Positions 18,372 through 62,131 of a DNA stretch of 64,000 nt are shown piece by piece; position 1 is the stretch's first letter, and the number at the start of each line of letters is the position of its first letter. The position numbers and the translations under genes are program-made. The DNA comes from Opitutales bacterium (GTDB lineage: Bacteria > Verrucomicrobiota > Verrucomicrobiia > Opitutales > Intestinicryptomonadaceae). The notes below the pieces were generated by a model. The model saw only the letters and a list, made by a program, of their open reading frames with translations, did no database searches and was not told the origin of the DNA. The stretch is from contig SUVP01000004.1 in the NCBI GenBank assembly GCA_015061945.1, positions 186,001 to 250,000 of the forward strand, read 5' to 3'.

Positions 18372-18767
18372 TTATGCGATTGCGATAAGTGGTTGACCTT
18401 CCTGTACGCTTTGTCCTGCTGAAACGTAAATCTTCGATACTGTACCAGCTCTGTCAGAGTTAATAGGTGTGCTCATTTTCATAGCTTCGAGAGTTACGAG
18501 CAAGTCGCCTTCTTTAACTGCTTGACCTTCTTTTACGTTTACTGCAACAACTGTTGCTGCCAATGGGCAAACAACGTCGCCTGCACCTGCTGCTACTGGT
18601 GCTGCTACTGGTGCTGGTGCTGGAGCAGGTGCTGGTGCTGCAACCGGAGCTGCTACTACTGGAGCAGGTGCTGGAGCTGCTGCTACTGGTGCTGCTGCTC
18701 TTGCGCCGAGAACTTCTACTTCAACTTCGTAAACTTTACCTTCAACTGTGATACGTAATTTTTTCAT
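18372..18767 (-). CDS. mmdC: Biotin carboxyl carrier subunit of the decarboxylase
   Basis: A 131-residue carrier. The first 22 residues (MKKLRITVEGKVYEVEVEVL) form the usual N-terminal strand pair, an Ala/Pro linker of about 40 residues follows (23-62), and the biotinyl domain covers 63-131 with biotin-accepting Lys97 in EAMKM. It shuttles CO2 from the carboxyltransferase (MmdA) to the membrane subunit (MmdB). The GCT/GCA-rich linker gives a local base composition unlike its neighbours but is a known design of this family. Confidence 0.94.
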   Translation of the reverse strand: MKKLRITVEGKVYEVEVEVLGARAAAPVAAAPAPAPVVAAPVAAPAPAPAPAPVAAPVAAGAGDVVCPLAATVVAVNVKEGQAVKEGDLLVTLEAMKMSTPINSDRAGTVSKIYVSAGQSVQEGQPLIAIA

Positions 18768-35542: not shown

Positions 35543-37102
35543 ATGAAGAAATATAACACTATACTACTCTCTATTGCGTTCGCATTTTCAGCATTCGCAC
35601 AAGATTCAAATACTATTGAGTATAATGGAGGCAAAAGCGTAAGTTCACGTACAACACTTTGGGTTGATGGTGCAGATTACTCCGATAAAGATTTGCTGTT
35701 GCACTCTGACACTGGCTCTTTCTATGGTGTAAAACTCCCAACAGATGGAACAGCTAAAACAATGACATATCGTTCATTGAAAGCTGTTATCGGCAGTGGC
35801 GACACTCTCGCATTAGGTAATTATACAACAGCATACGGCACATTGAATCTTGACGCAAACACATCAGAAAAAGATTTCACCGTCTTTGAAGTTGCAGATT
35901 TTTCAATGAACTACGCAAACTTGTATATCAAAAATACAAATGCATCTCCTGAAAATCCATTGTTATTCAAAGCAAACTCGATGAATCTTGTCGGTGGAGC
36001 TAAAACTCAAACTCAAAAACTCTACTTTCAAGCAAATACAAATGCAAATGTAGCTACGTCTGTATTAGGAAGAATAGAAAACACTACTGGCACATCATTA
36101 ATCCATATTTCTGTATCAAAAACTCTTAATTGGACTGGTGATATCACATTAAACCAATGTTCAAGACTTGTAGCAGATGGCACATTTAACCTCGATGGCA
36201 ATGCAACATTTAACGATGCATCAGGTGTCCTCGGCATCGGAAATGAAGGAACATTTAAAGTGGCATCCGGAAAAACTGTTAATTTGGGTTCTGCAACTTT
36301 AGAAGCCGTTTATGGTTCTTATTTAAACATCGATGGTGGAACATTCTTAACAGATAGTGCAATATCATTGAAACGTACAACTGTTAAAAACGGAACTTTC
36401 ACACAATCAGCTGGCGGAATACTAATTGAACGCGATGTAAAAGTTATCAACTCATCTACATTCACCGCTTCCGATTCGATCACACTTCGCTCACCAGACG
36501 CAAGCGATGCCGATGGTAATTTGATAAATTCTGCAAGATATGCAAAATTGCAAATCGGATATGATACAAACGACAAGGAATCTAAATTGATTATTAAATC
36601 AGACGCAAATGGTGACTCAAAAATCATAATCGGCAAGGATTCTTTCGTTTACTTGAACTCAGAAAATTCAGTGCAAAACGAAAACGGCAACCATTCGATT
36701 ATCATCGCAACAGAAGCTGACGCGTTTAATACAAACATTGAAATCAACTCTAACCAAAAGCTTGGCGGAATTGCACTTTCAAATGCATCACTAAAGCTCA
36801 CTATGGCTGACAATGCACTCCTTGAATTGACAAATATCGAAGATGCGTTCTCGTCAGACGGCGGTATATTGAATATTTATAACTTCACTGAAAATACAAT
36901 TAAAGTTGGCGATAATGTTGGCGTAAAACAAGCAATCGAACAATATGTAAAATTGTACGACGCAGCAGGCATTGAGCTCGACCCAGCAACAGTAATCGAC
37001 GGATACATCGCATTCACAACATCTGTCCCAGAACCAGCAGAATGGGCAATGCTCCTCGGAGCAATCGCTCTCGGCTTAGCAATCTACCGCCGTCGTAAAT
37101 AG
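35543..37102 (+). CDS. Large PEP-CTERM sorting-signal protein (beta-helix-like repeats)
   Basis: A 519-residue exported protein: signal peptide (MKKYNTILLSIAFAFSAFA), then a long body of short Asn/Thr/Ala/Ser-rich strands such as GTFNLDGNATFNDASG and GTFKVASGKTVNLGS, resembling autotransporter-like or adhesin beta-solenoids, and a C-terminal VPEPAEWAMLLGAIALGLAIYRRRK-type module (PEP motif, hydrophobic helix, basic tail). It is probably a surface or matrix protein. It shares its last 80 bases almost identically with the gene ending at 39417, while the bodies are related only in style. Confidence 0.87.
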   Translation: MKKYNTILLSIAFAFSAFAQDSNTIEYNGGKSVSSRTTLWVDGADYSDKDLLLHSDTGSFYGVKLPTDGTAKTMTYRSLKAVIGSGDTLALGNYTTAYGTLNLDANTSEKDFTVFEVADFSMNYANLYIKNTNASPENPLLFKANSMNLVGGAKTQTQKLYFQANTNANVATSVLGRIENTTGTSLIHISVSKTLNWTGDITLNQCSRLVADGTFNLDGNATFNDASGVLGIGNEGTFKVASGKTVNLGSATLEAVYGSYLNIDGGTFLTDSAISLKRTTVKNGTFTQSAGGILIERDVKVINSSTFTASDSITLRSPDASDADGNLINSARYAKLQIGYDTNDKESKLIIKSDANGDSKIIIGKDSFVYLNSENSVQNENGNHSIIIATEADAFNTNIEINSNQKLGGIALSNASLKLTMADNALLELTNIEDAFSSDGGILNIYNFTENTIKVGDNVGVKQAIEQYVKLYDAAGIELDPATVIDGYIAFTTSVPEPAEWAMLLGAIALGLAIYRRRK

Positions 37103-37109
37103 TTTACTA

Positions 37110-37255
37110 CACGGGCACCGGCAGGCGATTGCCGTAGGCAATTTTTTATATGACGGGCACCGGCGAGCGATTGCCGTAGGCAATATCGCTCGCTGATTTC
37201 GGATTGCACAATTATACAGAAAAACTGGCAAAGCGTTGCCAGTTTTTCGTTTTAG
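37110..37255 (+). repeat. Dispersed structured repeat, copy 1 (with truncated extra unit)
   Basis: A unit starting TATATGACGGGCACCG at 37146 and ending TTTTTCGTTTTAG at 37255 is repeated at 62023-62131. It holds two hairpins: GAGCGA-TTGCC-GTA-GGCAA-TA-TCGCTC and ACTGGCAA-AGCG-TTGCCAGT with a T-run, the latter an intrinsic terminator. A truncated extra unit (ACGGGCACCGGCAGGCGATTG..., 37110-37138) precedes it. Both copies lie directly after a gene on the + strand. Confidence 0.75.
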
Positions 37256-37259
37256 TTTT

Positions 37260-37349
37260 TTAAATGGTGTGTTTTAAAAGCGTGGGAACTTGCGACTCAT
37301 CGCATTCTACTCCGTCAACATCGACTGGAAGCGTAGGTGCAATTCCCCC
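37260..37349 (-). pseudogene. Possible 3' remnant of a gene
   Basis: On the minus strand about 30 codons read without stop up to a TAA at about 37261, with coding-like composition (IGGIAPTLPVDVDGVE, then CDESQVPTLLKHTI). There is no start: the frame meets a stop within the structured element at 37350-37424, whose edge coincides with the end of the open frame. It may be the tail of a gene disrupted by that element. No family is recognised. Confidence 0.25.
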
Positions 37350-37424
37350 GATATTCTATTGTAAAAATGTGAAACATTTTTAGTTATTGCCATACTACAC
37401 TGGCAATAACGGCAATAGAATATC
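37350..37424. other. Perfect three-way-junction palindrome
   Basis: An outer 12-bp perfect inverted repeat, GATATTCTATTG (37350-37361) with CAATAGAATATC (37413-37424), encloses two further perfect hairpins: AAAAATGT-GAA-ACATTTTT (37363-37381) and GTTATTGCC-(10 nt)-GGCAATAAC (37383-37410). Almost every base of the 75-nt unit is paired in a Y-shaped fold. It could be a structured RNA, a transposon-like miniature element or a recombination site. No named family is recognised. Confidence 0.7.
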
Positions 37425-37466
37425 AAAGAGGTAGAATAAAAGCACCGATTCATCCTCTCTTTATTA

Positions 37467-37595
37467 TTCTAAAAAACTAAATCATAAAGACTGCAACACA
37501 CATCAAATAAAAATCCGAACAGGGATAGGAGCATTGCAAAGCAATCTCCGTAAGGGGCAACGCCCCTTCAACGATGTGCAGGTGGCTCACCTGCT
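37467..37595. repeat. Hairpin-rich intergenic repeat, copy 1
   Basis: A 129-base unit repeated 194 bases downstream at about 90% identity by eye. It contains three short hairpins: GATTGC/GCAATC-like (ATTGCAAAGCAAT), AAGGGGC-AAC-GCCCCTT and AGGTGGCTCACCT. Differences between copies fall mostly in loops and linkers. The function is unknown. Confidence 0.7.
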
Positions 37596-37606
37596 TGCAG
37601 TGGGGT

Positions 37607-37635
37607 TTGGGGAGGGTGCAACCAACCCTCCCCAA
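37607..37635. other. Strong GC-rich hairpin
   Basis: Perfect 11-bp stem TTGGGGAGGGT (37607-37617) with ACCCTCCCCAA (37625-37635), loop of 7. It lies between the two repeat copies and is much more GC-rich than the surroundings. No T-run follows directly. Confidence 0.6.
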
Positions 37636-37660
37636 CATCTATTAACTCCTAATCTATCTA

Positions 37661-37790
37661 TTCTAAAAAAATAAATCATTAAAATAGCAACACACACAAA
37701 ATAAAAATCCGAACAGGGATAGGAGTATTGCGAAAGCAATCTCCGTAAGGGGCAAAGCCCCTTCAATGATGTGCAGGTGGCTCACCTGCT
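37661..37790. repeat. Hairpin-rich intergenic repeat, copy 2
   Basis: Second copy of the unit at 37467-37595, with the same order of hairpins. The GGGGC-AAA-GCCCC loop differs from GGGGC-AAC-GCCCC in copy 1 while the stem is kept, and one base is inserted in the ATTGCGAAAGCAAT arm. Confidence 0.7.
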
Positions 37791-37914: not shown

Positions 37915-39417
37915 ATGAAAAAGTTTCTATATTCTACTATTATCCTATCTCTCGTATTGTCTGCAAATGCCGATACAATGACTTTCTATGGCGGTGGGAG
38001 CCGAACACAAGTCACTGGTACATCCAATACAACTGATATTATTTTGGATTCTTCAAATGGTGTAGGCTACGCTGCAAATGGTGCCGTTGTGAAATCAATA
38101 AAAGTAATAAATGGCGACGCTACTTTTGCAAATGCAATAGATTGGAACGCAAATAAAGGTATTACCGTCGACATCAACTCTGCAACTGGAGATGTAGATG
38201 CTATTACAGCAGGTAATTGGACGCATAATTTGTTTACATTAACTATCAAAAATAGTGTAGCAAATTCAACAGCAACTGCAAATTTGTCTTTTAACACATT
38301 AACACTATCTTCAAAAAACAGTCAAGATGCACGCCTCATCTTCAACGGTGTTAATGCAAATGTCACAACTGTAAACGCCACCAATTTAGGAGATGGAACT
38401 ACTGCAAAAAACTATAAATCGACACTATCAGTTGATGCAAATTCTACTGTTGAATGGAACGGAGATATTTTAAATACCGTTTTAGGTGTTATGAACATCG
38501 CTGGAAATTATACTCATAATTCCAAGTTGACTTTGCAAAGTGGTTCGCAATACAACGCTTCTGGCACAATCACCCAAAACGGAGTATTCAACGCAAACTC
38601 AGGTGCAAATATTAACATTACAGGTAAGCACACGCAAAAAAATGCAGTATCATGGGCAAACGGTGCAAACGTCTCAATCACTGGCGAGTTTGCTATCGAC
38701 TACGAAAATGAAATGAAAATTGACTCGAGTTTTGACCTCGCCGGAAAAATCACACAAACATCAATAAGTGGCGATAATGGCATCAAATTTACTAAAGCAG
38801 TAACCCTTTTGTCAGGCTCAAGTCTGCAAGCACACAGCAAAATATTTTTAGACAAAGATGCATCATTGACAGTAAATAAAGATGCTTACATCAATATCAC
38901 TAAAGACGCTTCAAAGAACCCACGCATCATTTTAGACAAATCAACTCTCACATTGAATGAAGAAAATTGCCTCGTCAACGAATCAATCGATATAGGGGTT
39001 GTTACCATGGCAGGCGGAGAAAATAATATTTTGACTTCAAAAATATATCTCAACGCCAGCCAAAAATTAAGAAATATGTATGTTGCAAATTTTACAATTT
39101 TAGAAATGCACATGGCTGATGATGCCACGCTTACACTTACAGTTGATGATCAAAACGCATTGGGAAGCGGTGAGGGAATTTATAAAATCTATAATTTCCG
39201 CGAAGATTCAATTTATGTAGGTCTTAACGCAGCAACAAATACAACCGCCAATAATTATGTGTTCCTCTACGACGCTGAAAATAATTTACTCGGAAACGCA
39301 TTTGTTACAAACAATGGGTACCTCTCTCTGCTCCAAACTGTCCCAGAACCAGCAGAATGGGCAATGCTCCTCGGAACAATCGCTCTCGGCTTGGCAATCT
39401 ATCGCAGAAGAAAATAA
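37915..39417 (+). CDS. Large PEP-CTERM sorting-signal protein
   Basis: A 500-residue exported protein with signal peptide (MKKFLYSTIILSLVLSANA), a body of repetitive Asn/Thr/Ala-rich strands (for example NITGKHTQKNAVSWANGANV) and the C-terminal module VPEPAEWAMLLG ... IYRRRK. The end of the body (LNASQKLRNMYVANFTILEM, MADDATLTLT) aligns with the corresponding part of the 35543 gene (INSNQKLGGIALSNASLKLT, MADNALLELT), so the two are paralogues. It is likely a cell-surface or matrix protein processed by an exosortase encoded elsewhere. Confidence 0.87.
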   Translation: MKKFLYSTIILSLVLSANADTMTFYGGGSRTQVTGTSNTTDIILDSSNGVGYAANGAVVKSIKVINGDATFANAIDWNANKGITVDINSATGDVDAITAGNWTHNLFTLTIKNSVANSTATANLSFNTLTLSSKNSQDARLIFNGVNANVTTVNATNLGDGTTAKNYKSTLSVDANSTVEWNGDILNTVLGVMNIAGNYTHNSKLTLQSGSQYNASGTITQNGVFNANSGANINITGKHTQKNAVSWANGANVSITGEFAIDYENEMKIDSSFDLAGKITQTSISGDNGIKFTKAVTLLSGSSLQAHSKIFLDKDASLTVNKDAYINITKDASKNPRIILDKSTLTLNEENCLVNESIDIGVVTMAGGENNILTSKIYLNASQKLRNMYVANFTILEMHMADDATLTLTVDDQNALGSGEGIYKIYNFREDSIYVGLNAATNTTANNYVFLYDAENNLLGNAFVTNNGYLSLLQTVPEPAEWAMLLGTIALGLAIYRRRK

Positions 39418-42969: not shown

Positions 42970-44280
42970 ATGAGAGCTATTTTTAGAGCATTTTTTATTT
43001 ATCTATTTGTAGTGGTGTCGGCAACGCTTTGTGCTGAAAAATATATTACCACCTTTCAACCTGAAACCCCTGAAAAATTCAAGCGTTTCGGCGAGTACTT
43101 CTACGATATGAAAAATGTCAACCCTTACCCAATTCCAAATGTACTCGATCGTCCCGACGGGAAAGGGAAAGTCAAAACAGCACAAGAATGGACTCAACAA
43201 GTACGTCCTTTAGTTTTAAAATATTTTGAAGATGAAGTCTACGGAGCAATTCCGCCACGCCCCGACACAATTAAATTCGAACTTTTTGAATCTTCGAAAA
43301 ATGCACTTGGTGGAATTGCCGAACGTCGACAATATCGCATAACAGTTGGTGCGAAATACGGCGAAAGAACCTTCCACGTTTTACTCTATTTACCTTTAAA
43401 TGCAAAAGGCACACCTGCTTTTATCTGCCCAAACTTCAACGGTAATTACACAATTTCAAGCGAGCCTGAAGTAAAAAAAATAATCGCATATCGCTCGAGA
43501 ATGAAAACGCACCAACGTGGCTCTTATGCGAGCAGAATACCAGTTGCCGAAATTGTCGCACGTGGATATGCCATTGCGACTTTCAGCTATGAAGAAATTT
43601 ATAACGACGGTAAATCGCAAGAAATAGCCCAGAAAAGTGTCTATGGAATTTTTGAAGAAAACCCTACGCCGAAAAATTCAATCGCAATGTGGGCGTGGGG
43701 CAATATGCGTGTAATGGATTTACTGCAAACTTTGCCTGAAATAGACTCTCAGAAAATTGCAGTTGCGGGACACTCGCGTATGGGCAAAACTGCACTTCTA
43801 ACAGGTGCGTTTGATACGCGATTTGCCTATGTAATTGTCAACAATTCGGGCTGTATGGGCGACGCTCTCTCGAAACGTAAATATGGCGAAACAATTAAGT
43901 CGATGTTTGGCACACACCAAGTTGGCTATTGGTTCTCGCCTGCCCTCAAAAAATATATCGACAACGAAGGTACAATGCCTCTCGACCAACATCACTTGCT
44001 TGCGACAATCGCACCTCGTATGCTATACACGACATCGGCAACTGAAGATTATTGGGCAGATCCAGAAGGTCAACTTTTGGGACTAATCCACGCTTGCCCA
44101 ATTTACAAACTTTTTGGTGCAACAAATTTCCCAACACTCGATGCTCTTGAAATCGAAAAGCCAGTTCACGCAAATGTCGCTTACCATATTCGCAAAGGTA
44201 AACACGATATGACTTCGTACGACTGGAATAACTTTATCGATTACGCTGAAAAATGTGGTTGGAAGCCCAAGACCAAGTAA
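42970..44280 (+). CDS. CE15-type glucuronoyl esterase, paralogue 1 of 6
   Basis: Secreted alpha/beta hydrolase of 436 residues from the ATG at 42970 (signal ends ...VVVSATLCA). CE15 marks: AQEWTQQVRPLVLKYFEDEV and YGAIPPRP at the N-terminus, nucleophile elbow GHSRMGKTA, NNSGCMGDALSKRKYGE, DQHHLLATIAPRMLY, WADPEGQ and a C-terminal GKHDMTSYDW that supplies the catalytic His. Such enzymes cut ester bonds between 4-O-methylglucuronate of xylan and lignin alcohols. The frame is open upstream to 42811, but that part overlaps the divergent gene and lacks a signal. It heads a six-gene tandem array. Confidence 0.87.
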   Translation: MRAIFRAFFIYLFVVVSATLCAEKYITTFQPETPEKFKRFGEYFYDMKNVNPYPIPNVLDRPDGKGKVKTAQEWTQQVRPLVLKYFEDEVYGAIPPRPDTIKFELFESSKNALGGIAERRQYRITVGAKYGERTFHVLLYLPLNAKGTPAFICPNFNGNYTISSEPEVKKIIAYRSRMKTHQRGSYASRIPVAEIVARGYAIATFSYEEIYNDGKSQEIAQKSVYGIFEENPTPKNSIAMWAWGNMRVMDLLQTLPEIDSQKIAVAGHSRMGKTALLTGAFDTRFAYVIVNNSGCMGDALSKRKYGETIKSMFGTHQVGYWFSPALKKYIDNEGTMPLDQHHLLATIAPRMLYTTSATEDYWADPEGQLLGLIHACPIYKLFGATNFPTLDALEIEKPVHANVAYHIRKGKHDMTSYDWNNFIDYAEKCGWKPKTK

Positions 44281-44335
44281 TAATCACACCCTATTTACTT
44301 GACCATATTATCGCCTCTACATACGATATTTTCTT

Positions 44336-45667
44336 ATGAAAAAGAATTTATCTATATTGTTGGGGGCTTTTTGTTGCACGCTTGCACCATTTGTGTTTGC
44401 AGAAAAATATCAGACGATAGACTTACCGAAAGAAAACGCAAAAACACTTAAACGATACGGAGCCGAACTCTACATTGCGTCGAAAGCAAACGCATACCCA
44501 ATCCCGCATGTACTCAATCGTCTCGACGGAAATGGGAAAATTGAAACTGCACAAGAATGGAACAATATTGCACGCAATAAAATTCTCAAATTTTATCAGA
44601 CACAAGTTTATGGTGCAATACCGCCTCGCCCAAAATCTTTAAAATTCGAGCTTGTTGAATCATCGGATAACGCACTTGATGGCAAGGCAATTCGCCGACA
44701 ATACAAAATTATATCGACCGACAAATTTGGTACTTTCGAGTTTCTCGTTCTTCTCTACATCCCGAAAAATATCGACGGCAAAGCACCAGCGTTCGTCTAT
44801 CCGAACTTTTGGGGCAATTATAGTTTGACCGATGAAAAAGAAATCCCCCTGCCAGACTTCAGATATAGCGGTGGAAAGAAAGTAAAAATAAAAGAAAAAG
44901 AAAGAGGCTCTCGTGATAGATTGCCTGTCCGAGATATAATCGCACGTGGATTCGCTACTGCAACTTTCGCCTATTGTGATGTCTACCCTGACCTTGTGAA
45001 AGAAGACGGAGCAAAACAATCTATCTACAAGATTTTTCACAAAGACCCAAAGTATCCTGAATGTATGCCGTTTCCAGCGTGGGCGTGGGGCAATATGCGT
45101 GTGATGGATTTGCTCCAAACTCAACCTGAAATCGATTGCGATAAAGTCGCCGTTGTGGGACACTCTCGACTCGGCAAGACTGCAATCATAACAGGTGCAT
45201 ACGACACACGTTTCGCCTATGTGATTGCAAATAACTCGGGCTGTATGGGCGATGCTCTCTCAAAACGTAAATACGGTGAAAATATCCACGCAATAGCAAA
45301 CGTAACTTTCCTCTATTGGCTTTTGCCTCAAATGAAGAAGTATGCAAATAATGAAGGTGAATTGCCTCTCGACCAACACCACTTGCTTGCGACAATAGCA
45401 CCTCGTATGCTCTATTGTGCGTCGGCAACTGAAGACGTATGGGCAGATCCTGAAGGCGAGCTGTTAGGGCTTATGCACGCATGCCCAGCTTTTGCACTTT
45501 TCGGAGCAAAGAATTTCCCGACCCTCGATGTTCTCGAAATCGAAAAACCATTCCATGGAGATGTAGCTTACCATATCCGCAAAGGCAAACACAATATAAC
45601 TCCATACGATTGGAAAAACTTTATGGATTATGCTCAAAAGCATGGATGGAATCCAAAAAAGAAATAA
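44336..45667 (+). CDS. CE15-type glucuronoyl esterase, paralogue 2 of 6
   Basis: A 443-residue secreted esterase, signal MKKNLSILLGAFCCTLAPFV plus FA. Motifs: YGAIPPRPKSLKFEL, VVGHSRLGKTAIITGAYD, NNSGCMGDALSKRKYGE, DQHHLLATIAPRMLY, WADPEGE and GKHNITPYDW. It is closest to paralogues 1 and 3 by eye. A Lys-rich insertion (GGKKVKIKEKERGSRDR) precedes the elbow; in other CE15 proteins this region lies near the active site and varies in length, so substrate preference may differ. Confidence 0.87.
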   Translation: MKKNLSILLGAFCCTLAPFVFAEKYQTIDLPKENAKTLKRYGAELYIASKANAYPIPHVLNRLDGNGKIETAQEWNNIARNKILKFYQTQVYGAIPPRPKSLKFELVESSDNALDGKAIRRQYKIISTDKFGTFEFLVLLYIPKNIDGKAPAFVYPNFWGNYSLTDEKEIPLPDFRYSGGKKVKIKEKERGSRDRLPVRDIIARGFATATFAYCDVYPDLVKEDGAKQSIYKIFHKDPKYPECMPFPAWAWGNMRVMDLLQTQPEIDCDKVAVVGHSRLGKTAIITGAYDTRFAYVIANNSGCMGDALSKRKYGENIHAIANVTFLYWLLPQMKKYANNEGELPLDQHHLLATIAPRMLYCASATEDVWADPEGELLGLMHACPAFALFGAKNFPTLDVLEIEKPFHGDVAYHIRKGKHNITPYDWKNFMDYAQKHGWNPKKK

Positions 45668-45734
45668 CGTCTAATTTGCCGTTTGGTAAAGTTCAGTATT
45701 GACTATTTACCACAACAATAATACCTAATTTCCT

Positions 45735-47060
45735 ATGAGAAAGTATATGCCATATATCTTGTGCAGTACACTGCTTGTACTCGCATCAACTTTTACATTT
45801 GCCGAAAAATATAAGACCGTAAACAAACCTGTAAACGACAAGTTTATAAAAAAATATGGCCGATCTTTTTTTGATGTAAAAAATATCAACCCATTCCCAA
45901 TCCCACATGTTCTCGATAGAATCGACAACAAAGGGAAAATCACAACTGCACAAGAATGGAACAATATTGCACGTCCACAAATTTTGAACTTTTACGATGA
46001 GCAAGTCTACGGAGCAATTCCCCCTCGCCCAGATTCTATAAATTTTGAGTTGTTGGAATCGTCGAAAGACGCTCTCGGCGGAATTGCAGAACGCCGACAG
46101 TATAGAATCACAGTATCGGCAAAATATGGCTCTCGTGATATCAATGTACTTTTCTATTTGCCCAAGGGTGCAACAAAAGATGTGCCGACATTCGTTTACA
46201 CAAACTTTGCAGGCAACTACGCAATGTCGCCCGAAGAAGAAGTTTTCAGAATCGAACCACCAAAAACAAAAGGCAAAAATTTAAAACGTGGACGCCAAGC
46301 GACACGCTTGCCTATTGCCGATATTGTCGCACGTGGATTCGCCGTTGCAACACACTGCTACGAAGACCTCTACCCCGACGATAAATCACAAAAAGCATTT
46401 AAGCAAAGCATCTATCAGATTTTCGCCAACCGCAATTCATTCCCCCAAGGTGGTGCTATCTCGGCATGGGCTTGGGGAAATATGCGTGTGATGGATTTAC
46501 TCCAAACAATCCCCGAACTCGACAAACAGAAGATTGCTATCGTTGGGCACTCACGTCTTGGCAAAACTGCAATCCTCACAGGTGTACACGACAAACGCTT
46601 TGCATACATTATAGCAAACAATTCAGGCTGTATGGGCGACGCTCTCTCGAAACGCTACTACGGGGAATCACTTGGCTCAATGGTAAAAATCAATTTTCCA
46701 TATTGGTTTATGCCAGCTCTCGCAAAGTATGCCGACAACGAGGGCGAGTTGCCACTTGACCAACATCACTTGCTTGCGACAATAGCACCACGTATGCTCT
46801 ATACAACGTCGACAACAAAGGATGAATGGGCAGATCCCGAAGGTCAACTTTTAGGGCTTATAAATGCGTGTCCAGCGTTTGCACTTTTCGGAGCAAAGAA
46901 CTTCCCAACTCTTGATGCACTCGAGATTGAAAAGCCATTCCATGGAGATGTCGCCTACCATATCAGAAGAGGCAAACACAGTATAACCCCGTACGACTGG
47001 AACAATTTTATGGACTACGCACAAAAGCGTGGTTGGAAACCTGTTTTACCAAAGAAATAA
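45735..47060 (+). CDS. CE15-type glucuronoyl esterase, paralogue 3 of 6
   Basis: A 441-residue secreted esterase with signal MRKYMPYILCSTLLVLASTF plus TFA. Motifs: YGAIPPRPDSINFEL, VGHSRLGKTAILTGVHD, NNSGCMGDALSKRYYGE, DQHHLLATIAPRMLY, WADPEGQ, GKHSITPYDW. The insert before the elbow (RIEPPKTKGKNLKRGRQATR) is short and basic. It ends two bases before the next start, so paralogues 3 and 4 are tightly coupled. Confidence 0.87.
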   Translation: MRKYMPYILCSTLLVLASTFTFAEKYKTVNKPVNDKFIKKYGRSFFDVKNINPFPIPHVLDRIDNKGKITTAQEWNNIARPQILNFYDEQVYGAIPPRPDSINFELLESSKDALGGIAERRQYRITVSAKYGSRDINVLFYLPKGATKDVPTFVYTNFAGNYAMSPEEEVFRIEPPKTKGKNLKRGRQATRLPIADIVARGFAVATHCYEDLYPDDKSQKAFKQSIYQIFANRNSFPQGGAISAWAWGNMRVMDLLQTIPELDKQKIAIVGHSRLGKTAILTGVHDKRFAYIIANNSGCMGDALSKRYYGESLGSMVKINFPYWFMPALAKYADNEGELPLDQHHLLATIAPRMLYTTSTTKDEWADPEGQLLGLINACPAFALFGAKNFPTLDALEIEKPFHGDVAYHIRRGKHSITPYDWNNFMDYAQKRGWKPVLPKK

Positions 47061-47061
47061 A

Positions 47062-48315
47062 ATGAAGAAAAATATTATAAAATCGATAGCACTCGCAACA
47101 GCTCTATTTTGTGGAGCATGTGCGTCAACCGATGATTCAGACAAGCAATTCCCATTGCCCGATATTTTGGTATCGCCTATAACAAAAACAAAAATTACAA
47201 CAGCTCAAGACTGGAACAATATTGCACGTCCTGAAATTTTGGAATTTTTCCAAAAGAATGTTTACGGCAAAATGGTGCCTCGCCCACAAAAGTTGGAATT
47301 CAAACTTTTTGAAGAATCGGACAACGCCCTTGATGGCACGGCAATCCGCAAACAATACAAAGTTGTCTCAACAGATGTAAACGGGTCGCACTCGTTCAAT
47401 GTGCTTGTGTATATTCCCAAAAATGCGAAGGGAAAAGTTCCAGCGTTTGTATGCCCGAACTTTTGGGGAACATATAGCATTACCGATGACAAAGCTGTTC
47501 CGTTGCGAGAATTCAAAGGGAAATCGAAAACAAAAGTCAAAGAATCGGACAGAGGTTGTCGACCAGAAAGAATCCCTGTTCGCGATATAATCGCACGTGG
47601 TTTTGCAATAGCTACATTCTGCTATTGCGATGTCTATCATGACGGAATCAAAAACGACGGTGCGAAAAAATCAATCTACAAGATTTTTGCCGATGATGCA
47701 AATTGGGAAAAACTCGCAATTCCAGCATGGGCGTGGGGAAATATGCGTACAATAGATATTCTCGAAACATTGCCTGAAATCGACAAACGTAAAATCTGCT
47801 TGGCTGGACACTCTCGCCTTGCCAAAACTGCTGTTTACACTTCCGCATTCGACCAACGTATTTCACTTGCATGCATAAATGGCGGTGGATGCAAACGCCT
47901 TTGCTTCTTGCCAAACCTACGCTTCCCATATTGGTTCTCGAAAAATTTGAGAACATACGTTGAAAATGAACAGACCGGAATTCCATTTGAAGAATTGAAA
48001 AAACTCTGTGCCGGTAAACCACCATTGCCAGTTGAACAATACTCACTCATAGCGTGTATTGCTCCACGTGCCTTGTATTTGGCAACAGCCGATGGCGATA
48101 TATTCGCCCCACCTTACGTTCACTTTCCAGCCGTCAAGGGTGTAGAACCTGTTTACAAACTTTTTGGTGCAAAAGATTTCCCACCTATGAGTATGGAAAG
48201 TAGCCCAACAGCATACTTTGGTGACATTGCATACCATTGTAAAAAGGGTGTACACTCTATCACTAAAGAAGACTGGAAAAACTTTATGGATTACGCACAA
48301 AAACTCGGTTTCTAA
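47062..48315 (+). CDS. CE15-like esterase, divergent paralogue 4 of 6 (putative lipoprotein)
   Basis: A 417-residue protein from the ATG at 47062. The N-terminus (MKKNIIKSIALATALFCGAC) may carry a lipobox ending at Cys20, unlike the other five, so it could be membrane-anchored. The elbow is kept as GHSRLAKTA (Gly to Ala before Lys) and the His motif as KKGVHSITKEDW, but NNSGCMGDAL becomes INGGGCKRLC, DQHHLLATIAPR becomes VEQYSLIACIAPR, and WADPEG becomes IFAPPYV. An insertion (QTGIPFEELKKLCAGKP) follows. The Ser and His remain, so it may hydrolyse another ester, possibly with a different acid residue. Confidence 0.78.
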   Translation: MKKNIIKSIALATALFCGACASTDDSDKQFPLPDILVSPITKTKITTAQDWNNIARPEILEFFQKNVYGKMVPRPQKLEFKLFEESDNALDGTAIRKQYKVVSTDVNGSHSFNVLVYIPKNAKGKVPAFVCPNFWGTYSITDDKAVPLREFKGKSKTKVKESDRGCRPERIPVRDIIARGFAIATFCYCDVYHDGIKNDGAKKSIYKIFADDANWEKLAIPAWAWGNMRTIDILETLPEIDKRKICLAGHSRLAKTAVYTSAFDQRISLACINGGGCKRLCFLPNLRFPYWFSKNLRTYVENEQTGIPFEELKKLCAGKPPLPVEQYSLIACIAPRALYLATADGDIFAPPYVHFPAVKGVEPVYKLFGAKDFPPMSMESSPTAYFGDIAYHCKKGVHSITKEDWKNFMDYAQKLGF

Positions 48316-48340
48316 AATACAAAAAATTTAAAGGAAAAAT

Positions 48341-49705
48341 ATGAAAAAGTATCTAACAATATTATTGGCATTGGGGACATCGTTTGCATTTGCAGGCGAG
48401 TTGTATAAAGCAGAACCACCCGCAAAAGGTTGGAATTATAAAGTTCGCAGAACAGGCGAAAAGATTCATATAAATTACGATGAATCTAAAGCCGACATCT
48501 ACAAGAAGCTCGATATTCTCGATAAAATCGGGGAAAAGGGACGTGTAGAATCGGCGAAGCAATGGATGAATGAAGAACGTCCAAAGGTAATAAAATTCCT
48601 CGAAGAAGAATATTACGGCAAACTTCCCCCTCGCCCAAAGAAGCTTGAATTTAAGCTCGTGGAAGAATCGGACAATGCTCTCGACGGCACTGCAAAACGC
48701 CGTCAATACAAGATTATTTCGACTGATGTCAACGGCTCGCACACGTTCAATGTTTTGATGTATTACCCAAAATATGCGTCAAAAGAAAACCCTGTACCAG
48801 CGTTTATTTATTGCAACTATGGTGGCAATCACACAACTACAACAGAAAAAGAAGTTCTTTTGCCTGAATCAGACGCTTGGTTGAGAAATAATTCTGCATG
48901 CAAAATTTCAGACCACAAAGCATACGACTATCAACGTGGCACACACGTAAGTCGCCATCCATATAAAGAAACAATCGCACGCGGATACGCCGTTGCTACA
49001 TTCACCTACAATGAGCTTTATCCTGATACCGAAACTTTCTTTATGCCCGAAAAATCTATCTACAAGATTTTCTATCGACAAGCTCTCGACAAACACTTGC
49101 GTTCTATTCCAGCATGGGCGTGGGGAAATTGCCGTGTTCTCGATTTGCTCGAATCATTGCCGTTTATCGACCGACACCACATCGGTGTTGCAGGACACTC
49201 TCGCATCGGCAAAACTGCAATGCTAACTGGTGCATACGATAAACGTGTTGCGTTAGCAGTTTCAAACAGCTCGTGCATTGGTGGAGCAGCGATGAACCGC
49301 CGCGACTATGGCGAAACACTTAAGACAGCATCGCACCACTTCATTTGTTGGTATCAACCAAAGATGCAATACTATGGCAACAATGTCGAAGAAATGCCGA
49401 TTGATTCACAACACTTCCTTGCGGCAATGGCTCCACGTATGATTTATGTTCTTTCGGGAACAAAAGACTTTTGGGCAGATCCAAAGGGAGAATTCCTCTC
49501 GCTTATGGAAGCTGGTAAAATCTACGGATTGTTTGGAGCAAAGAAAATGGCTACTCTCGACGATTTGAGAGTTAACAAGCCGTTTATCGGCGATGGTTTC
49601 GGTTTTGTTCTCTATGACGGCAAACATAAAATAGACCTCTACAACTGGAATTGCATTATGGACTTCACCGATGCACATGGTTGGACAAAAAACGTTAAGA
49701 AATAA
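48341..49705 (+). CDS. CE15-type glucuronoyl esterase, paralogue 5 of 6
   Basis: A 454-residue secreted esterase with signal MKKYLTILLALGTSFAFA. Motifs: YYGKLPPRPKKLEFKLVEES, AGHSRIGKTAMLTGAYD, NSSCIGGAAMNRRDYGE, DSQHFLAAMAPRMIY, WADPKGE and DGKHKIDLYNW. It forms a subgroup with paralogue 6, whose C-terminal 180 residues are nearly identical. The preceding spacer carries an AAGGAAAAAT ribosome binding site. Confidence 0.86.
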   Translation: MKKYLTILLALGTSFAFAGELYKAEPPAKGWNYKVRRTGEKIHINYDESKADIYKKLDILDKIGEKGRVESAKQWMNEERPKVIKFLEEEYYGKLPPRPKKLEFKLVEESDNALDGTAKRRQYKIISTDVNGSHTFNVLMYYPKYASKENPVPAFIYCNYGGNHTTTTEKEVLLPESDAWLRNNSACKISDHKAYDYQRGTHVSRHPYKETIARGYAVATFTYNELYPDTETFFMPEKSIYKIFYRQALDKHLRSIPAWAWGNCRVLDLLESLPFIDRHHIGVAGHSRIGKTAMLTGAYDKRVALAVSNSSCIGGAAMNRRDYGETLKTASHHFICWYQPKMQYYGNNVEEMPIDSQHFLAAMAPRMIYVLSGTKDFWADPKGEFLSLMEAGKIYGLFGAKKMATLDDLRVNKPFIGDGFGFVLYDGKHKIDLYNWNCIMDFTDAHGWTKNVKK

Positions 49706-49720
49706 ATCACAAAAAAATAA

Positions 49721-51082
49721 ATGAAAAAATATTTCACAATATTATTACTACTTGGAGCATCGCTTGCATTTGCAGGCGAGCTCTACGTTTCTGATCGAAA
49801 CGATAGAGTCCCACGCAAGTATGGTCCGAAAAAAGTTGATATTGTAATCAACTACGATGAGTCGAAGGCAAACATCTACAAGAAGCTCGACATCCTCGAT
49901 AAAATCGGCGGTGGCGGACGTGTGGAATCGGCAAAGCAATGGATGAATGAAGAACGTCCAAAGGTTATAAAATTTCTCGAAGAAGAATATTACGGGAAGA
50001 TGCCACCACTCCCGAAAAAGCTCGAGTTTAAGCTCGTTGAAAAATCGGACAACGCACTCGACGGCACTGCAAAACGCCGTCAATACAAGATTATTTCGAC
50101 CGATGTAAATGGTACGCACACTTTCAATGTGTTGATGTATTTCCCAAAATATGCGTCGAAAAATAATCCTGTGCCAGCATTCGTTTACACAAACTATTCG
50201 GGTAATCACACAACAGTTGCGGAAAAAGAAGTTTTACTTCCAGAACGTGATGCGTGGTTCAGAAATAGCAAGACGGGAAAAATCACAAACCATACCACAA
50301 ACGATTCGCAACGTGGTGCATCTCTAACACCACATCCATTTAAGGAGATTGTCGCACGTGGATACGCTGTTGCAACATTCAGCTACAACGAACTCTATCC
50401 CGATACAGAAACTTACTTTATGCCCGAAAAATCTATCTACAAGATTTTCGACAGAAAGGCACTCGGCGAACACTTACGTTCTATCCCAGCATGGGCGTGG
50501 GGCGATTGTCGTGTTCTCGATTTGCTCGAGACTTTGCCGTTTATCGATAGACATCATATCGGCGTTGCGGGACACTCACGACTCGGCAAAACTGCAATGC
50601 TCGCTGGAGCATACGACCAACGTTTTGCGTTGGCAGTTTCAAATAGCTCGTGCATTGGCGGAGCAGCGATGAACCGTCGTGATTACGGCGAAACACTTCG
50701 CTCGGCAACTGTAAACTTCTATTGCTGGTATCTGCCAAAGATGCAGTACTATGGCGAACATGTCGAAGAAATGCCGATTGACGCACAACACTTCCTTGCG
50801 GCAATGGCTCCACGTATGATTTATGTTCTTTCGGGAACAAAAGATTATTGGGCTGACCCAAAGGGAGAATTCCTCTCGCTTATGGAAGCTGGTAAAATCT
50901 ACGGATTGTTTGGTGCAAAGAAAATGGCTACTCTCGACGATTTAAGAGTTGAAACGCCATTCATCGGCGATGGTTTCGGTTTCGTCCTCTACAACGGCAC
51001 ACATAAAATAGACCTCTACAACTGGAACTGCATTATGGACTTTACCGATGCACATGGTTGGACAAAAAATGTAAAGAAATAG
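49721..51082 (+). CDS. CE15-type glucuronoyl esterase, paralogue 6 of 6
   Basis: A 453-residue secreted esterase with signal MKKYFTILLLLGASLAFA. Motifs: AGHSRLGKTAMLAGAYD, NSSCIGGAAMNRRDYGE, DAQHFLAAMAPRMIY, WADPKGE and NGTHKIDLYNW, where Lys before the His of paralogue 5 is Thr. It starts 15 bases after paralogue 5. The array ends in a strong terminator. High nucleotide identity with paralogue 5 points to a recent duplication. Confidence 0.86.
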   Translation: MKKYFTILLLLGASLAFAGELYVSDRNDRVPRKYGPKKVDIVINYDESKANIYKKLDILDKIGGGGRVESAKQWMNEERPKVIKFLEEEYYGKMPPLPKKLEFKLVEKSDNALDGTAKRRQYKIISTDVNGTHTFNVLMYFPKYASKNNPVPAFVYTNYSGNHTTVAEKEVLLPERDAWFRNSKTGKITNHTTNDSQRGASLTPHPFKEIVARGYAVATFSYNELYPDTETYFMPEKSIYKIFDRKALGEHLRSIPAWAWGDCRVLDLLETLPFIDRHHIGVAGHSRLGKTAMLAGAYDQRFALAVSNSSCIGGAAMNRRDYGETLRSATVNFYCWYLPKMQYYGEHVEEMPIDAQHFLAAMAPRMIYVLSGTKDYWADPKGEFLSLMEAGKIYGLFGAKKMATLDDLRVETPFIGDGFGFVLYNGTHKIDLYNWNCIMDFTDAHGWTKNVKK

Positions 51083-60772: not shown

Positions 60773-62030
60773 TTTCCGATTGTTGACACTTTTAATTTTT
60801 TGTATTTTCATTCTAACATTGAACACTTTTAAGAAAATAAAACGCAAAATCTCTAAGTTCGCTGAAAATTTTGCTCACCTGACAGCCGACGTCATTTACG
60901 ACCGCCGGACCGGTTGGGACGTATTCTTGTATGCCACTTTTTTGCGTGCACTCTCTTTCATTTTTGAAGCTATCGCACGCACAAGATATTGGCTCTACAA
61001 CAAACGTATTTTGCGAGACGCTCCACTCGGATGTCTCGTAGTTGTCGTCGGCAACTTGACTGTCGGCGGAACAGGCAAAACGCCAATCGTAGAAAAATTC
61101 GCACGCACGTTGAGCGAACGTGGTCGAAAAGTTGCAATTCTCAGTCGTGGATACAAAAGTAAATCGGAAGGTTCGTTCAAAAAATTTTTGCGTTGGATAA
61201 CTCATGGCGAAGCTCCTAAACCTCGTGTTGTTTCAGACGGAAAAAATGTTTTGCTCGACTCCGAAATCGCCGGCGACGAACCCTATATGCTCGCACGCAA
61301 CTTGCCAAATGTAGTTGTTGTTGTCGACAAAAATAGAGTCCGTGCAGGACACTACGCAATCACAGAGTTTGGTGTCGATACCCTTATTCTCGACGACGGT
61401 TTCCAATACCTTCCTCTAAAAGGACAAGTTCAACTTCTACTCGTCGATAAAACAAATCCGTTCGGCAATTTTTGTCTGCTCCCACGCGGTATTTTGCGTG
61501 AACCAGTCTCACACTTATCACGTGCGTCTTTCATCTTCTTAACAAAATCTGACGGAAAAAAAGACATCAAATTAGAGCAAGTTATACGCAAGTACAATCC
61601 GTCCGTTGAAATAATCGAATGTGCCCACCGCCCGACTTGCCTCGCAAATTTCTCGACAAACCAACGCACAGAATTGGATATTCTCAAAGGTGCTAAAGTC
61701 GCTTGCTTCTCTGCCATTGCCGTCCCAGAGGGTTTTGAGAACTTCTTGACGCAACTCGGTGGTGAAATTGTTTACAAAAAACGCTTTCTCGACCACCACC
61801 GCTTTGACGATATCGAGCTCGAAACTTTCTTCGACAACGCAGTAAAAGCTGGTGCCGATTTTGCTGTCTGCACAGAAAAGGACGCTGTTAGAATCCGTAC
61901 CGACCTCTCAACGCCGATCCCATTTTATTACACAAAACTCGAAATTGATATTATCGACGGCAACGAAGACTTTGAAGCAGCCGTAGAAAAAATCTGCTTC
62001 CCAAAACGCCACTCTGATTCTTTTATATGA
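60750..62030 (+). CDS. lpxK: Tetraacyldisaccharide 4'-kinase
   Basis: Phosphorylates the lipid A disaccharide precursor at the inner membrane. Key blocks: [19 protein letters not shown] (P-loop with GGTGKTP), [50 protein letters not shown] and FLDHHRFDD. The frame has no ATG: the longest start is TTG at 60750, inside a terminator stem; TTG at 60819 is another candidate and fits the usual family N-terminus better. An extra 16-residue stretch ([16 protein letters not shown]) follows the RGYKS block. The stop TGA lies inside the first bases of the dispersed repeat. Confidence 0.92.
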
Positions 62031-62131
62031 CGGGCACCGACAGGCGATTGGCATAGCCAATATCGCCTGTTGATTTCGGGTCGCCGAATTTTACAGAAAA
62101 ACTGCCAAAGCGTTGGCAGTTTTTCGTTTAG
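62023..62131 (+). repeat. Dispersed structured repeat, copy 2
   Basis: Matches 37146-37255 in layout and most bases. Hairpin 1 is AGGCGA-TTGGC-ATA-GCCAA-TA-TCGCCT and hairpin 2 ACTGCCAA-AGCG-TTGGCAGT plus a T-run. Compared with copy 1, both arms change together, which keeps pairing. It probably acts as the lpxK terminator. Confidence 0.75.

Follow-up and report, generated by a model that had tools for sequence, protein, structure and literature searches.

A Y-shaped palindrome is the probable core of a modular, species-specific interspersed repeat with its own predicted terminators in an Opitutales genome

The locus and its palindrome

The window, i.e., the entire stretch of 64,000 nucleotides analyzed here (G000:C4:186001-250000), is part of a 2.5-Mb draft genome in 15 contigs (G000). 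Two genes for PEP-CTERM-like proteins border a region that contains a palindrome of 75 bases (Y), folding into a Y shape with zero mismatches in all three stems (Table 1). Elsewhere, the window contains a tandem series of six paralogous genes, each about 1.38 kb long, with repeats that are 60 to 86% alike (families D1 to D10), and a coding-like low-complexity tract with a period of 12 to 15 bp (family D5).

The original prediction, made from the sequence of the window, had described perfect stems of 12, 8, and 9 bp; their perfection and the 12-bp outer stem were confirmed, and the inner stems were found to be 9 and 10 bp long. Its view that this pairing is far beyond chance was borne out by z scores of about -7 to -10. 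The RNA fold of Y with short flanks (37340-37434) reaches -31.6 kcal/mol on the plus strand and -37.0 kcal/mol on the minus strand, with z scores against shuffled sequence of -7.25 and -7.79, respectively, and a z score of -10.5 was obtained for Y folded as DNA. In the consensus fold, an additional helix around Y can be formed by the conserved pair GGTGC (37336-37340) and GCACC (37442-37446). The original prediction also placed the outer edge of Y where a coding-like frame on the minus strand ends, which was not supported: there is no minus-strand ORF of at least 60 amino acids nearby, and the local stop-to-stop frames are short and do not resemble genes. The edge that is in fact linked to a gene is the start of a terminal module, termed E, at 37142-37151, behind the stop codon (37102) of the plus-strand PEP-CTERM gene.

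Table 1. Features of the window, in window coordinates
Feature	Position	Strand	Description
Low-complexity tract	18521-18720		coding-like
PEP-CTERM-like gene, upstream	35543-37102	+
Truncated older E (half-E)	37103-37141	+	directly behind the PEP-CTERM stop codon
Left terminal module E	37142-37261	+	TTTTTATATGACGGGCACCGGC, hairpin hp1, spacer, terminator hairpin hp2 and T-rich tail
hp2 of left E	37219-37248	+	T-rich tail behind
A module	37276-37446	+	surrounds Y; from flank alignment, consensus fold, and model R1
Y core	37350-37424	.	12-bp outer stem enclosing hairpins of 9 bp and 10 bp
Y outer stem	37350-37361/37413-37424		12 bp, no mismatch
Y hairpin 1	37362-37382		9 bp, 3-nt loop
Y hairpin 2	37383-37410		10 bp, 8-nt loop, then two unpaired G
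B module, first copy	37505-37639	+	hairpins GGAG.ATTGC/GCAAT.CTCC, AGGGGC/GCCCCT, GCAGGTG/CACCTGC, GGGGAGGG/CCCTCCCC; families D14, D16
B module, second copy	37699-37790	+	truncated; right inverted E missing
PEP-CTERM-like gene, downstream	37915-39417
Six tandem paralogous genes	43105-50739
Solo E module	62028-62127	+	upstream gene ends at its TGA

Copies and anatomy of the composite repeat

A blastn search revealed 12 copies of Y in G000, with identities of 96 to 100%, and this genome contains 24 instances of the outer-stem 12-mer, exactly two for each copy. The search for further genomic copies proposed in the original prediction was thus positive, and a single-copy curiosity is ruled out. 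Two of the 12 copies sit at contig ends, as is expected from assembly breaks at repeats.

Alignment of the flanks showed that the repeated unit is a non-coding composite of about 600 bp with the order E, spacer, A module containing Y, spacer, B module, and inverted E. Seven copies are complete, of which six (L010, L011, L012, L016, L017, and L019) span 583 to 605 bp between GGGCACCGGC ends, and the seventh, L018, has one altered base in its right end. Modules are duplicated in three copies, with an A-B-B arrangement in the window copy and L015, both of which are without the right E, and an A-B-A arrangement in L014, which runs up to a contig end. E and inverted E are 73 to 86% identical over about 105 bp and form terminal inverted repeats like those of MITEs; the composite is also, as MITEs are, non-coding, multicopy, and strongly folded, with one complete copy folding at -296 kcal/mol (z score of -24.9). 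A coding interior was considered and rejected: several short frames recur since the copies are near-identical, and none is gene-like. At the right flank of L015, a neighboring gene whose 3' end lies next to the element reads as the C terminus of a tyrosine recombinase or phage integrase. Such a neighbor would suit the idea that the composite is what remains, after decay, of a larger mobile element, such as one with an integrase, with the E arms as its ends. However, only one copy was noticed with a neighbor of this kind, and A-B holds no gene-like coding remnant, making this the least probable of the readings considered.

Searches with covariance model R1 for the A module retrieved the 12 copies and one decayed copy, all in G000, and returned no match in 53 relatives, in which blastn with Y was equally negative. 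The Y pattern was matched neither in viral nor in species-level genome collections, and an origin from phages or plasmids was rejected, as no match was found in either. The proposed covariance search against Rfam gave nothing at the gathering score, only sub-threshold chance matches. The claim that no known family is recognizable consequently stands for Rfam, phages, and plasmids but not for the kind of element, small interspersed palindromic repeats being well known. Integron attC sites are expected to be arrayed; they were considered as a candidate and dropped, as the present copies are dispersed. The B hairpin (GGATAGGAG-ATTGC...GCAAT-CTCCGTAAGGGG) is common to G001 and G008, two genomes of the same genus; in G001, a B-type hairpin is carried by tandemly arrayed units of about 72 bp (L025, G001:C2:703125-703735). 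Judged from these matches, A and Y appear to be confined to this species, and B appears to be a genus-level repeat.

Conservation of the palindrome

Mean pairwise identity is 97.7% for Y, 99.1% for the part of A to its right, and 93.3% for B, and falls to 79 to 84% in the spacers and 73 to 77% in the E arms. The length of Y is constant across the 12 copies. Variation in Y is limited to five positions, of which three are loop bases and two belong to loop-closing pairs (Fisher P = 0.034), a pattern of five sites that supports, and does not prove, a constraint on the Y stems.

These data bear on the main rival explanation, according to which A(Y) is a multicopy small-RNA gene that is transcribed, folds as Y, and acts in trans or on its neighbors, the E terminators merely bounding it. 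A conservation of Y and its flanks far above that of the spacers, a fixed length, and variation limited to loops and loop-closing pairs would suit such a gene, as would the conserved outer GGTGC/GCACC helix, which can lengthen the fold. Against it, an internal sigma-70 promoter was sought, and no promoter-like site above chance was found inside the composite, which is weak evidence given that promoters of this group are little known. Moreover, terminators at both ends would block read-in, the A module was not found in any related species with the covariance model, and no Rfam family corresponds to it. We regard a small-RNA gene as unlikely.

The E module at the ends of genes

E (~105 bp) consists, in this order, of a T-run, TGACGGGCACCGGC, hairpin hp1, a spacer, and hairpin hp2 (13 bp), behind which lies a T-rich tail. 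Over 31 E copies, 99.3% of the hp2 cells are standard pairs and both sides have changed in 7 of the 13 pairs, with a covariation score of 0.415 vs 0.151 for shuffled data. A terminator scan found hp2 to be terminator-like on both arms, reading inward, and its G+C-containing stem followed by a T-rich tract is that of an intrinsic terminator, as which hp2 is predicted on the basis of covariation and scan. That the palindrome is not a terminator, having no T-run, is correct for Y itself but not for the composite, which has predicted inward intrinsic terminators at both ends.

Model R2 detected about 43 strong E matches (>40 bits) in G000, the left E of the window among its matches (G000:C4:223151-223250), and no strong match in related species, the genus giving weak ones only. 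Some of these copies are nearly identical and others heavily decayed. At most left, right, and solo copies, the end of a long ORF falls between -15 and +3 nt relative to the start of E; a few ORFs extend 26 to 46 nt into E, and one E (L069) lies behind an apparent tRNA gene 3' end. In three non-convergent cases, which are too few for an orientation rule, the left E is at the 3' end of the upstream gene. A PEP-CTERM-type C-terminal motif is found beside other E copies as well (L012, L057, L058, L059, and L064). Truncated half-E copies (window 37103-37141, L012, L055, and L064) are cut at one common place in hp1, after GCAAT, or else after GACGGG, and the T-run of a complete E follows immediately, as if this were the point at which new copies are joined; in the window, the shortened hp1 of the half-E and the T-run of the next E read as a terminator (37127-37143). 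Behind the solo E of L059 (G000:C2, about 169850-170030), there are about six tandem E-tail units of 33 to 34 bp (TTTTCGTTTTAGTTGTTAGA...).

The hairpin variants behave as discrete units, each a whole hairpin, and are shuffled among copies as well as from arm to arm, suggesting that copies exchange sequence with one another. Together with the covarying terminator at gene ends and the span from near-identical to very decayed copies, this reshuffling is in line with the possibility that the elements are immobile, the E pairs being host terminators homogenized by gene conversion and A-B a passive spacer that is copied along. However, the 600-bp composite must have been copied to new sites to be found at a dozen unrelated loci, and E replaces the native end of one gene and enters two others at their last codons, as detailed below. 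Immobile elements are accordingly a doubtful account, ranking slightly behind the small-RNA gene.

Probable arrival of E at the ends of miaB, queC, and glgP

The names of these three genes rest on a reading of their protein sequences. The miaB product of G000 (L132, G000:C8) ends in ALEG-FLLDGHRRAIAVGNIAR*, read through the T-run (T6) and hp1 of E, whereas its closest orthologs (L133 and L134) end in ALEGKIVR* and ALEGEIV*, without E. The junction lies within the last four codons, and E supplies a new C terminus replacing the native one. queC and glgP of G000 also end inside E, entered at the last codons, and the glgP orthologs of the genus have other sequence downstream. These junctions are good evidence for an arrival of E at the loci concerned and do not show by which mechanism. 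The impression of an inserted element stands insofar as a structured element is repeated in 12 copies and the miaB C terminus was displaced; the inserted unit, however, is the composite with Y as its core, and no target-site duplication was seen at copies with both ends. Specifically, a comparison by eye of the flanks of the seven complete copies revealed no direct duplication, and the T-run to their left and the A-run to their right belong to the inverted ends and are not direct repeats.

No autonomous copy with a transposase was seen among the about 43 strong E copies of this 15-contig draft genome, Y1 being the transposase family searched. An inverted E pair 1.8 kb apart (C14:257822/259630) was examined as a candidate autonomous transposon and rejected, as it encloses a Sel1-repeat gene. 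Mobilization by a RAYT (Y1 HUH) transposase, as for REP/BIME-type repeats, would agree with the inverted dimers downstream of genes, with the inclusion in the PVC group of a GTAG-REP-rich species of the Verrucomicrobia, O. terrae (PMC3733652), and with the outer end of E, which reads ...CCCGTC on the other strand and recalls CGTC-tagged REPs. This reading is weakened by the lack of any match to PF01797 in G000 and 18 other genomes of the family. Furthermore, CGTC REPs are units of 20 to 40 bp in which a stem of 8 to 9 bp lies beside an unpaired CGTC, with a CCA tail (PMC3733652), but the present units measure 105 to 600 bp, and the CGTC of the ~105-bp E is about ten bases from the nearest stem. 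A RAYT-mobilized repeat is consequently very improbable.

Interpretation and significance

The explanation that we favor, with a probability of roughly two in three, is that a non-coding interspersed repeat of about 600 bp, E-A(Y)-B-E', modular and species-specific, has Y as its invariant core and spread in a MITE-like manner. The element would have spread as a passenger of some enzyme that mobilizes it in trans, or did so in the past. Insertions behind genes would survive because E brings stop codons and a terminator, leaving the neighbors properly closed off. Y itself would most likely be a folded nucleic acid signal for copying or processing, as a cruciform, as single-stranded DNA, or as RNA if transcribed, and not a host gene. 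Gene conversion among copies or the use of E as a host terminator could explain part of the pattern without transposition. A more specific proposal is that Y is the recognition structure, as DNA or RNA, of a mobilizing enzyme that is neither a RAYT nor a recognized transposase and that copies the terminator-ended element precisely onto gene ends without target duplication; we consider this speculative, a shade less probable than the small-RNA gene. Should a mobilizing enzyme be found, its obvious candidate substrate would be the invariant Y core.

These data add a new repeat family, with its anatomy, from a little-studied group of gut Verrucomicrobiota. By bringing stop codons and predicted terminators with it, such a repeat can establish itself behind genes, and miaB is one clear case in which a repeat rewrote the C terminus of a housekeeping protein.

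Comparison with known repeats

The element looks like a new family of small interspersed palindromic repeats of the BOX/SPRITE/MITE-like kind with its own predicted terminators. The BOX elements of Streptococcus pneumoniae are modular, measure 67 to 637 bp, and are over-represented between convergent genes (PMC3049150). They share with the present element an arrangement in which end modules flank internal ones that vary in copy number, as well as strong folding, a non-coding nature, and restriction to few related species (PMC3049150). In contrast, target-site duplications and a proposed helper, ISSpn2, belong to BOX and were not found here, and the ends of the present element are complete intrinsic terminators, as predicted. 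The comparison with BOX is one of architecture alone (PMC3049150), with no known sequence kinship. Another repeat of S. pneumoniae, SPRITE, resembles a Rho-independent terminator, and target duplication could not be shown for it either (PMC3049150). As a terminator-like interspersed repeat at the 3' ends of genes, it is closest to solo E, but it consists of one 18-bp duplex, whereas E has two hairpins, and it is without a Y-bearing interior.

RU-1/ERIC and the Rickettsia palindromic elements are likewise small palindromic repeats that have become joined in frame to protein-coding genes (PMC2759123, PMC2229807). An amidase gene lost a stop codon to RU-1, and its product was extended at the C terminus (PMC2759123), which is similar to the extension of miaB by E. 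Their sequence and anatomy are different, however, and the Rickettsia elements lie inside coding sequence, whereas E is found at its very end. GTAG and CGTC REPs and BIMEs also form inverted hairpin dimers downstream of genes, and CGTC REPs have no known transposase (PMC3733652); E and the composite differ from them in being much longer, in having no adjacent tag-stem layout, and in that no RAYT was found. The present family combines features of BOX, SPRITE, RU-1, and CGTC REPs with a sequence of its own.
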